Of a stretch of DNA of 64,000 bases, positions 15,333 through 18,220 are shown in pieces. Numbering within the stretch: the first letter of the stretch is position 1; each line of letters opens with the position of its first letter. The stretch is from contig NZ_CP107254.1 in the NCBI RefSeq assembly GCF_029229925.1, forward strand, positions 1,550,001 to 1,614,000, written 5' to 3'. The notes under the pieces are model-generated. The model ran no database searches. It had not been told where the DNA came from and worked only from the letters and a program-made list of their open reading frames with translations. The stretch is from Halorhabdus sp. BNX81 (GTDB lineage Archaea > Halobacteriota > Halobacteria > Halobacteriales > Haloarculaceae). The translations under genes were made by a program, and so were the position numbers.

Positions 15333-16058
15333 TTACAGTTCCGTCACGGCCGTGAGCGCCATCTCGATCATTCGTTCGACGTTATCGTGTGCTTTCGCCG
15401 GCAGTTCGTCGTCCTCGGTTTCGCCCTTCTGGGTCCCCTCGACCAGATTCCCGTCGACGGTGCAGATCGCGCCCGAGCGAAGTCCCTTCCGACGCGCCAG
15501 CGAGAAAATCGAGGCCGCTTCCATCTCGACAGCGAGCAAGCCAGCGGCTTCCCAGTCGGTGACGGCCGAGTCGTCCTCCGCGTAAAAGGCATCGTCTGTC
15601 ACGATCGGCCCGACGTGGACCGGCTCGTCGCGTCGTCTGGCCGCCCCAACCAGCGTCGACACCACCTCGTGGTCCGGGACGGCCGGAATCGTCGCCGACT
15701 CGTAGCGTTTCGTGGTCCCTTCGTCCTTGGCCGCGCCGGTTGCGACGATCACGTCGCCGATCTCGATGTCGGACTGGAGTGCGCCGGTCGTCCCCACGCG
15801 CAGGAACGTCTCGACGCCGACGGCCGCGAGTTCCTCGATGGCAACTGCCGCCGACGGACTCCCGATCCCGGTCGAACAGATCGCCAGTTCCCGGCCCTCG
15901 TAGGTCGCGGTGACGATCCGGTATTCGCGGTTGTGCGTCACCGTTTCGACGTTCTCACAGTGGTCGGCGATGCGATCGACGCGGCCCGGATCACCGGGAA
16001 GCAACACGACGTCGGGCAGGTCGCCCTCCTCGACGAGCAAGTGCGGTTGTTTCGCCAT
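15333..16058 (-). CDS. udp: Uridine phosphorylase / nucleoside phosphorylase
   Basis: A 241-residue PNP/UDP-family enzyme that splits a nucleoside with phosphate to give ribose 1-phosphate and the free base. Visible motifs are VVLLPGDPGRVDRIA (substrate-phosphate Gly/Arg loop), STGIGSPSAAVAIEEL, RVGTTGALQ, and LAVEMEAASIFSLA (the Glu-Met-Glu ribose-binding motif). The family distinguishes uridine from purine substrates only weakly by sequence, so uridine is the most likely substrate. With deoC and the intervening DUF63 gene this gives a salvage neighbourhood. A TATA-like TTTTAGT lies ~27 bases upstream. Confidence 0.85.
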   Translation of the reverse strand: MAKQPHLLVEEGDLPDVVLLPGDPGRVDRIADHCENVETVTHNREYRIVTATYEGRELAICSTGIGSPSAAVAIEELAAVGVETFLRVGTTGALQSDIEIGDVIVATGAAKDEGTTKRYESATIPAVPDHEVVSTLVGAARRRDEPVHVGPIVTDDAFYAEDDSAVTDWEAAGLLAVEMEAASIFSLARRKGLRSGAICTVDGNLVEGTQKGETEDDELPAKAHDNVERMIEMALTAVTEL

Positions 16059-16145
16059 GCGTGTGGCTGTGATCGCGGGGACTAAAACAGTTGAGAACTG
16101 CCATCACTCCGCGCCGTCGCCCCCGTCACGACGATCGCCCCCGGA

Positions 16146-16979
16146 TTATCCCAGCGTGAACAGCACGAAGTTGTTCACCGCCGGTCCGAGCCCGACAGCC
16201 GTGATGACAACGAAAAAGAGGCTGCCGTAGGTCGGTTCCTCCTCAACGTAGTCGGCAAACGTGACGACAACGAACGTCGCGATGAGTACCTTCACGACGA
16301 GAAACAGCCATCCGGAGCCGATGTATGCGGCTGTCGGCAGCGAGCCGGCGAAATCCATGATCGCCGCCGGGATCGGCGTTCGCTCAGTCGATCCCAGGAT
16401 GTCGTAGCCGATCATCGTGATCACACCGTCGAACGTGTGGGCGAAGACGACGGCCGCGCCGGCGATCCCCGTCCGAGCGACCGCCCCAGTCCAACGGAGA
16501 CTTACCAGGAAGTACGTGACTGCCGTCACCGCAAGCGAGATTACGAACGCGAGGGTCGGCCACATCGGCGAGAACTCGACCGCCGGAGCGATCCCCTGCC
16601 AGACCATCGCGCCGAGGAAGACGATCAAGACACCGAGACCAGCCGCCCCGAGATACGTCCCGACGCGACCGAGATTGCCCGTGGCTGTCCCGAGGAGGAT
16701 CAACAGCAGCCAGACAGTCGCCACCAGGACGTAGGTCGTCACGTACACTGTCGGAGCTGAAAACAGCGGCGCGACCCACGCCGGGTACAGTCCCGGCACC
16801 TGATAGAACCCGTGTGCGATCCCCCCGATCGCCATCCACGGAAGCAACGCAACGACGTGTCGTTTCCCCACCGGCGGCTCGAACCCAAACAAAAGCAGTG
16901 TCGTCAGCAGCGCCCCCAGCCCGAGTACCACCAGATACGGCAGCCCCGGAGCGACCAGCCCGCTTGGAAGAATTGCCAT
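16146..16979 (-). CDS. DUF63 family membrane protein
   Basis: A 277-residue protein with about seven transmembrane helices, recognised as archaeal DUF63 from the VFAHTFDGVITMIGYD segment, the FAGSLP and KVLIATFVVVTF segments, and the final VVITAVGLGPAVNNFVLF segment. DUF63 has no established function. Its place between uridine phosphorylase and deoC is interesting but does not prove a role. A second DUF63 homologue begins at 63253. Start is the ATG at 16979. Confidence 0.8.
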   Translation of the reverse strand: MAILPSGLVAPGLPYLVVLGLGALLTTLLLFGFEPPVGKRHVVALLPWMAIGGIAHGFYQVPGLYPAWVAPLFSAPTVYVTTYVLVATVWLLLILLGTATGNLGRVGTYLGAAGLGVLIVFLGAMVWQGIAPAVEFSPMWPTLAFVISLAVTAVTYFLVSLRWTGAVARTGIAGAAVVFAHTFDGVITMIGYDILGSTERTPIPAAIMDFAGSLPTAAYIGSGWLFLVVKVLIATFVVVTFADYVEEEPTYGSLFFVVITAVGLGPAVNNFVLFTLG

Positions 16980-17081: not shown

Positions 17082-17314
17082 GAAATGAGGGTAGTGTTCA
17101 GATAAGGGGTTGAATTGAGTGAGACTGCTCTGAAAGCCCTCGCCAGTTCCGGTCCCGCGACTCGCTGCGCGCTTCGAGCCTTTCAGGCTCTGCAGTGCTT
17201 GCATCGTCGGGGTTCCCGGAACTGACTCGCCCTTTCAGTCCACCAGGATTCGGTTGTGTAGCCGGCAAAAAGTCGCTCTTTGATCGGTGCTTATCTGAAC
17301 ACCGCCGAAATGAG
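17082..17314. mobile_element. MITE-like element with 17-bp TIRs and 8-bp target duplication
   Basis: Bases 17090-17306 (217 bp) begin GGTAGTGTTCAGATAAG and end with its near-perfect inverse, CTTATCTGAACACCGCC: 15 of 17 positions pair, including 13 consecutive ones. The element is bounded by identical 8-bp direct repeats GAAATGAG at 17082-17089 and 17307-17314, which are the target-site duplication. There is no ORF for a transposase inside, so it is a non-autonomous MITE. An 8-bp duplication and GG-starting ends fit IS6-type elements (IS1595 also makes 8-bp duplications). An internal hairpin is at 17176-17190. The element fills most of the 373-bp space between the DUF63 gene and deoC. Confidence 0.75.
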
Positions 17315-17324
17315 ACAGTTGACC

Positions 17325-17330
17325 TTTATG
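17325..17330 (+). promoter_or_regulatory. TATA box of deoC
   Basis: TTTATG sits 24-29 bases before the deoC ATG at 17354, only 10 bases after the right target duplication of the MITE. Anything upstream that once regulated deoC has therefore been displaced by the element. Confidence 0.5.
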
Positions 17331-17353: not shown

Positions 17354-17995
17354 ATGCTCCCGGAAGACGTTCCCGCACGAATCGAACACACCGTGCTCGG
17401 CCCGGAAACGACACCAGCTGCCGTCATCGACGTGCTCGATGACGCGATCGAGTACGGGATGGCTGCCTGCGTCCCGCCGTGTTACGTCGCCCAGGCGGGT
17501 ACATACGCACCCGAGGTCAGACTCGCGACTGTCGTCGGGTTCCCCCATGGACAGCATGCGTCGTCGGTCAAAGCGGCCGAGGCAGCCCAGGCCGGCGACG
17601 ACGGTGCCGACGAACTCGACATGGTCTGTAACATCGGGCAGCTCAAAGCCGGCGAAGACGAGCTCGTGAGGACGGACATTGCGGAAGTCGTCGCGGCCAC
17701 GTCGCTGCCAGTCAAAGTCATCGTCGAAGCACCGCTGTTGACTGACGCCGAACTCGACCGCGTCGGGCAACTGACCGCTGAAGCTGGCGCTGACTTTCTC
17801 AAGACATCGACCGGATTCAACGGCGGTGCGACAGTGGCCGATGTCGAGCGGCTGAGTCGGTATCTTCCGGTCAAGGCCAGCGGCGGGATCGGCTCCTGGG
17901 AGAAAGCAAAGGCGATGTTCGAGGCCGGGGCTGAACGGATCGGAGCCTCACGCGGCGCGACGATCGTCGACGAATACAGACAATCCGAGTCGTAA
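17354..17995 (+). CDS. deoC: Deoxyribose-phosphate aldolase
   Basis: A 213-residue class I aldolase that splits 2-deoxyribose 5-phosphate into glyceraldehyde 3-phosphate and acetaldehyde. The active-site parts are all present: the DMVCNIG strand (Asp89), FLKTSTGF with the Schiff-base Lys150, and LPVKASGGI with the helper Lys174. The length is close to the family's usual 210-260. Start is the ATG at 17354, just downstream of a TATA box and after the MITE; an in-frame open stretch upstream (from 17195) lies inside the MITE and is not coding. It is the downstream partner of nucleoside phosphorylase in deoxynucleoside catabolism. Confidence 0.92.
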   Translation: MLPEDVPARIEHTVLGPETTPAAVIDVLDDAIEYGMAACVPPCYVAQAGTYAPEVRLATVVGFPHGQHASSVKAAEAAQAGDDGADELDMVCNIGQLKAGEDELVRTDIAEVVAATSLPVKVIVEAPLLTDAELDRVGQLTAEAGADFLKTSTGFNGGATVADVERLSRYLPVKASGGIGSWEKAKAMFEAGAERIGASRGATIVDEYRQSES

Positions 17996-18020: not shown

Positions 18021-18133
18021 CTTCCGACTGGCGTCGGAAGTCCTCGCTCTCTTCTCACGGGCGCGAAGCGCCCGTTCGAACGGTCAAGAGGGACCTCCGG
18101 TCCCTCACGACTTGAGGCCGGAGGCTCCGCCTC
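18021..18133. repeat. Cluster of four consecutive hairpins / palindromes
   Basis: Perfect inverted repeats follow one another: CTTCCGAC-TGGC-GTCGGAAG (18021-18040), GGGCGC-GAA-GCGCCC (18059-18073), CCGTTCGAACGG (18072-18083), GAGGGACC-TCC-GGTCCCTC (18088-18106), and a bulged stem between GAGGC (18114-18118) and GCCTC (18129-18133). They fill the 225-bp space between deoC and the convergent surface-protein gene. No ORF is supported here. It could be a bidirectional terminator, a structured RNA, or a palindrome-associated element. Confidence 0.6.
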
Positions 18134-18220
18134 GAAATTGCTGACACGCGGGGCGAAGCTACTCATTTCTCATCACAGCTGACGGTTCGGATAAATGACG
18201 CGAGAAAATCGAGGGCGTCG

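Follow-up and report, generated by a model that had tools for sequence, protein, structure and literature searches.

A probable promoter-targeting group of non-autonomous IS6 elements, represented by an ISH29-type MITE at a fixed distance upstream of the deoC core promoter in Halorhabdus sp. BNX81

MITEs, IS6 elements, an IS6 MITE and the general occurrence of insertion sequences near promoters are already known, and what is new here is the choice of target at a fixed offset. The closest described systems are ISH29 and the archaeal IS6 group, with which the element described here agrees in its ends, in its 8-bp duplication and in the 697-bp length of its autonomous partner, and from which it differs in being a MITE that lacks a transposase and in having a core hairpin that is absent from the autonomous IS. 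In their way of working, the nearest parallels are the yeast retrotransposons Ty3 and Tf1, whose insertions take up a set position with respect to a promoter, in Ty3 by way of TBP and a TFIIB-like factor. A fixed distance from the core promoter is common to these and to the haloarchaeal IS6 elements; the enzymes are unrelated, guidance by protein is what we infer for the haloarchaea, and the likeness is one of working and not of membership. An IS6 MITE of haloarchaea that is likewise moved in trans has been named MITEHarch3 in ISfinder, according to the extract available of PMC6807381, and can be likened to ours by its description alone; the authors of the same extract report having found no experimental data on archaeal IS6. 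The MITEs of Haloquadratum, as they appear in excerpts of PMC3119063, are also haloarchaeal and moved in trans, with cases recorded in genomes that lack a functional transposase, but unlike ours they are reported inside other mobile elements (30 of 31). An offset from the promoter or TATA box is unmentioned in the excerpted literature on archaeal IS6, haloarchaeal MITEs and IS near promoters, the point itself not having been made the subject of a literature search, and the end and hairpin strings matched nothing in related literature texts, save for one string that occurs in two unrelated papers.

The window, that is, the whole stretch of 64,000 nucleotides that was analysed, contains the MITE at 17090-17306 (Table 1), and the element is confirmed as real. 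All of the structural details given in the preliminary description were found again in the letters of the window, namely a length of 217 bp, outer 17 bases that pair at 15 of 17 positions (with a run of 13 perfect pairs) and identical 8-bp repeats on either side. Its designation as a MITE without a transposase also holds, the ends being common to autonomous IS, the duplication being present, and the 217 bp containing no transposase gene, with no IS6 transposase match at the locus. When up to two mismatches are allowed, the core end motif occurs at only two places in the window, which are the two ends of this MITE (0.45 expected). The TATA/BRE region of the downstream gene, which we take by recognition to be deoC, encoding deoxyribose-phosphate aldolase, lies outside the MITE and is uninterrupted: CTTTATG stands 9 bases past the right duplication, and its centre is 27 nt before the ATG at 17354. 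The BRE position given in Table 1 is a presumed one. Adjoining deoC, at 15333-16979, are what we recognize as a nucleoside-phosphorylase-like gene and a DUF63-type gene. Just past deoC, at 18040-18160, there is a series of short perfect hairpins, and CACGGGCGCGAAGCGCCCGTTCG within it is also a hairpin inside another copy of the MITE (copy g, see below).

Table 1. Features of the deoC locus in window coordinates. Offsets are counted outward from the element end.
Feature	Position	Strand	Remarks
Target duplication, left copy, GAAATGAG	17082..17089	.	identical to right copy
Left terminal inverted repeat, GGTAGTGTTCAGATAAG	17090..17106	+	same as ends of the 697-bp IS6 element in G002
MITE core, one full hairpin-repeat unit (model R1)	17123..17243	-	87.6 bits, E 3.1e-19, model positions 1-120; covariation
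Remainder of MITE between hairpin unit and right end	17244..17289	.	
Right terminal inverted repeat, GGCGGTGTTCAGATAAG on the minus strand	17290..17306	-	
Target duplication, right copy, GAAATGAG	17307..17314	.	
deoC core promoter, intact: TATA-like CTTTATG 17324-17330, presumed BRE position ~17318-17323	17318..17330	+	offset 18-24 from element end
deoC (presumed)	17354..17995	+	ATG at offset 48 from element end

The autonomous partner is found outside BNX81. A genome of the same genus (G002) carries four essentially identical 697-bp elements with GGTAGTGTTCAGATAAG at both ends, one of which has a stop within the transposase, and the 17-bp ends of the MITE equal the left end of this element and the ends of IS in genomes G050 and G053. 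The autonomous IS in all three genomes are flanked by 8-bp duplications (8 bp at each of L070, L073 and L074). The open reading frame of the 697-bp element scores 191.6 bits against the IS6 model NF033587 (cut-off 125) and 29.6 bits against PF13610 (cut-off 27). At the DNA level the element shares 82% identity with ISH29 across 697/697 positions. The preliminary description had allowed for an IS6- or an IS1595-type partner; the match to the IS6 model settles the first, and the second falls away, no IS1595 model being among the NCBIfam or Pfam matches to the partner transposase up to an E-value of 0.001. The expectation that the mobilizing IS would be elsewhere in this genome was not borne out, as a Pfam search of the BNX81 genome returned no such IS6 transposase and a protein search returned only two transposase fragments (62.6 and 19.6 bits) with stops, the intact copies being in a sister species. 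Because the genome has only these fragments, the MITE appears now to be stranded in BNX81. Across the family the IS6-type end pattern is present in 63 of 146 genomes, with 0 for the reversed control. In one region of G002 (G002:C6:208885-229731), two inverted IS6 copies (L071 and L072) lie 20 kb apart with their 8-bp flanks exchanged and inverted, as expected of an inversion either by intramolecular replicative transposition or by recombination between two copies, which are indistinguishable here; the former is described for IS6 in the available portion of PMC7986276.

The preliminary description had looked to other genomic copies and to relatives lacking the element, and both exist. The BNX81 genome (2.83 Mb, one contig) contains 26 end motifs with no more than one mismatch, versus 1 for the reversed control, and 24 stretches resemble the focal MITE, which when joined amount to about 16 copies. 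Perfect 8-bp duplications flank seven of the 16 copies examined, the focal one included, and one further copy has a duplication of 7/8. For nine copies the element and, where present, one duplication were removed and the joined flanks compared with six sister genomes. By this means contiguous unoccupied sites were found for copy c in both G006 and G005, for copy e in G005 and for copy h in G006; copies d, i, o, a, f, and b had one flank matched, or none. The unoccupied sites in relatives are signs of movement of the MITE, which would have taken place in trans. At the focal locus itself, G001 has the DUF63-type gene and deoC adjacent with no MITE between them; in the remaining sister genomes the two genes are separated. 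Divergence of the intergenic DNA in G001 is too great for the precise empty site at deoC to be located there, and no MITE copy is seen upstream of deoC in the other Halorhabdus genomes.

These results bear directly on the alternative that the focal sequence is a non-mobile conserved structured element of the deoC leader, either RNA or regulatory DNA. Such an element would be expected to fold, and the MITE does so beyond its shuffles (z of -4.4 as DNA and -4.3 as RNA) with stems that covary, but copies with duplications lie beside other genes, none lies upstream of deoC in the other genomes of the genus compared here, and no Rfam family reaches threshold for the MITE stretch, the sole above-threshold match being a tRNA elsewhere in L021. 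We regard a deoC-leader element as refuted by the duplications and the unoccupied sites, and give it almost no weight. The age of the insertion is a separate matter. The perfect target repeat had been read as a sign of recent insertion, a view that does not survive comparison with G006: copy g and its counterpart in that genome share the same perfect duplication, CCCTGAAT, and near-identical flanks, and a perfect duplication is therefore no proof of recency. At this same site in the two species (L096 versus copy g, G000:C1:649068-649601), whole small hairpins have been gained or lost and the rest is nearly identical, and the same-site copies L099 and copy l (G000:C1:2189690-2190198) also differ by whole small hairpins in an otherwise nearly identical sequence. 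Phage records searched with the MITE DNA gave no match.

The hairpin in the core of the MITE is a repeat in its own right. Covariance model R1 was built from 29 hairpin units, all from outside this MITE family, in which 93.8% of paired positions are standard pairs (sliding the pairing lowers this to 22-48%) and 178 double changes occur. The mismatches were compared to see whether the hairpin might act as a functional RNA: G-T and A-C are about equally frequent in this alignment (11 and 9), and in a 109-row alignment fitted to the model, whose rows are related, G-T exceeds A-C in P2 and P3 (45 vs 17, p 5e-4). The repeat has conserved feet, GAAAGGGGC and GGGGCTTTC, and stems that change freely yet are always paired, often as a two-armed cloverleaf, and it occurs at L021, L022, L023, and L202-L208 in the BNX81 genome as well as in other Halobacteria. 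Of 57 genomes sampled from the family, 48 contain units; when the phylum was sampled, units were seen in 13 of the 14 genomes belonging to the order of BNX81, itself among them, and in 0 of 66 others. The MITEs of Halomicrobium have two inward-facing units between IS6 ends, and by analogy the remainder of the focal MITE (17244..17289) is perhaps the remnant of a second unit; none of the four autonomous IS tested has a unit. In being short, palindromic and present in many copies the core resembles the bacterial REP elements and RAYTs of PMC3733652, but the unit is larger and has the two feet where, in the excerpt of that paper, REP has GTAG. At one hairpin site, C202, the repeat is present in G005 and G006 and absent from G001 and G003, where the site is empty. 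With the cloverleaf as query, no annotated feature lay under the match in the annotated plasmid records among the matches listed. The idea that two-armed hairpin elements are wholly independent of IS6 was dropped, since an IS6-like end lies within 90 nt in 12 of 86 of their outward flanks (2 in the five next 90-nt windows together), from which it follows that some hairpin elements are within IS6 MITEs of two end types and that most are not. Four hairpin elements, L206 (G000:C1:2518065-2518309, with the duplication GAAAGAAT), L203, L207, and L158, are bounded by the second IS6-like end type, CTAAACAC..CC, and thus make up another group of IS6 MITEs that shares this core.

The position of the insertions relative to promoters is the central result. 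An A/T box at a constant place was first noticed in the flanks of 29 insertions, and the interval of 18-24 was picked after seeing the first set, so that the later sets are the test. A box was scored when at least 5/7 positions at offset 18-24 were A/T on at least one side, and expected counts came from windows placed at random in these flanks, with starts between offsets 27 and 51, over 20,000 permutations. The first set comprises 28 insertions whose duplication is complete or matches at 5/8 positions or more; its offset counts exclude copies c, f, k, l, m, n, and p (f was among the 29 initially viewed). A second sample of 60 more stretches from the end-pattern list gave 45 that paired at both ends, 25 of them with a duplication of at least 6/8, and after removal of three repeats of earlier insertions and addition of four IS it consisted of 15 MITEs and 11 autonomous IS. 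A pattern scan of new genomes used the 80 of 120 stretches that had titles (40 untitled were excluded) and its 73 exact ends yielded 11 pairs with a duplication of at least 6/8, or nine insertions once two repeats were subtracted. The sampling is weighted to Halorhabdus and Halomicrobium, and gene-context counts were not taken from simple ORF calling, which is too crude.

The box is present in 42 of 54 distinct MITE/IS insertions, for which 12.7 would be expected, and is missing in the other 12, which is a counter-point. By set, it is found in 22/28 of the first insertions (8.3 expected), in 11/15 of the further MITEs (1.8 expected) and in 9/11 of the autonomous IS (2.6 expected), the observed count being reached in 0 of 20,000 permutations in each case; the later MITEs and autonomous IS together have 20/26. 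The new genomes add a box in eight of nine insertions (3.7 expected; 11/20,000 permutations), with the three IS of that set, at 2/3 and 1.2 expected, no different from chance. Among single haloarchaeal ends (n = 70) the box is present in 37 versus 7-19 in seven other windows, and a control of 19 chance matches outside haloarchaea, which is small and not perfectly clean, has 7 at 18-24 versus 2-5 elsewhere. Start codons also cluster: over 108 flanks there are 8 ATGs at offset 48, 9 at 49, 6 at 50 and 5 at 52, with about one at most other offsets, and 19 of 42 promoter-side flanks have an ATG at 46-52 (11/22 in the first set, 5/11 in the further MITEs and 3/9 in the autonomous IS). The promoter-side consensus reads C/G at position 12, A at position 16 and TTTAT over positions 19-23, where the A/T richness at 18-24 comes partly from selection and the letter order and positions 12-16 do not. 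Such a layout corresponds to a BRE followed by a TATA box near -27 and a start without a leader. Within the family the deoC copy is typical: with its TATA at offset 18-24 and its ATG at 48, it matches the mode exactly. Since 74 flanks of hairpin units without IS6 ends have no A/T or ATG peak at the offset window, and 12 flanks beyond IS6-like ends, some of the second end type, have the offset signal again, if weakly, the promoter offset goes with the IS6 ends and not with the hairpin.

The ATG peak spans 3 nt and that of the A/T box about 5 nt, and these widths weigh on the explanation that insertion is random and that the elements simply persist where they lie just upstream of core promoters or between genes. 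Insertions within genes would indeed be lost, and IS near promoters are common in general, as stated in the accessible part of PMC9208149. However, survivorship of this kind would tolerate any position beyond -40 as well as the gaps separating convergent genes, so that a wide scatter upstream of -40 is to be expected; because no such scatter is seen, we disfavor it as the sole cause and judge it improbable. That relatives in many related species insert at a constant spacing from the TATA box suggests instead that the elements recognize promoters when they jump. Our reading is that the focal element is a non-autonomous IS6 MITE of the ISH29 type, inserted at a fixed distance upstream of the deoC core promoter, and that its group is promoter-targeting, to which we assign a probability of roughly 80%.

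We propose that the transposase was supplied in trans by the 697-bp IS6 element, now represented by fragments only in BNX81, and would have inserted the MITE with its 8-bp duplication. Insertion in this group is not random: some 17 nt separate the element end from the TATA box, 47-49 nt separate it from the start codon, and the promoter faces outward. The transposition complex would be steered to such sites, most likely by TBP/TFB already bound there or by the shape that these proteins impose on the DNA. The main rival to TBP/TFB guidance is direct sequence preference, in which the transposase itself, with no transcription factor, prefers a DNA pattern about 10 bp outside the cut (C/G, A, and TTTAT at fixed spacing, or bendable A/T), promoters merely supply that pattern, and insertions that break promoters or genes are removed by selection. 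In its favor the A/T box is commoner than a start codon at the expected place, most clearly in the autonomous IS, where 9/11 have the box and 3/9 of those an ATG at 46-52. The signal is, however, directional, with a start codon at a fixed distance, and A at 16 and C/G at 12-13 fit a BRE; direct recognition is nonetheless compatible with a directional signal and BRE-like positions, and we hold it to be a serious possibility at somewhat less than even odds. Guidance by TBP/TFB would account for the fixed distance, the direction and the start codon, and direct preference would do nearly as well. That haloarchaeal IS6 transposases and their MITEs are directed to the upstream border of a core promoter occupied by TBP/TFB, as a prokaryotic counterpart of Ty3-like targeting, is a tentative proposal, for which we would likewise not claim even odds.

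By inserting at a constant spacing from the TATA box, a mobile element seldom ruins the gene and yet renews its upstream region, and could thereby rewire regulation repeatedly across the haloarchaea. At deoC the core promoter is spared, and the likely effect is therefore that DNA formerly upstream of about -40 has been displaced by 225 bp; an effect of the MITE on deoC expression is plausible. The rule predicts that new insertions will be found at about -47 to -40. If TBP/TFB do guide the complex, the MITE copies would chart which promoters were occupied when each insertion took place, these elements could serve as a genetic reporter of archaeal promoters in the bound state, and the yeast retrotransposons would have an evolutionary parallel in the haloarchaea.
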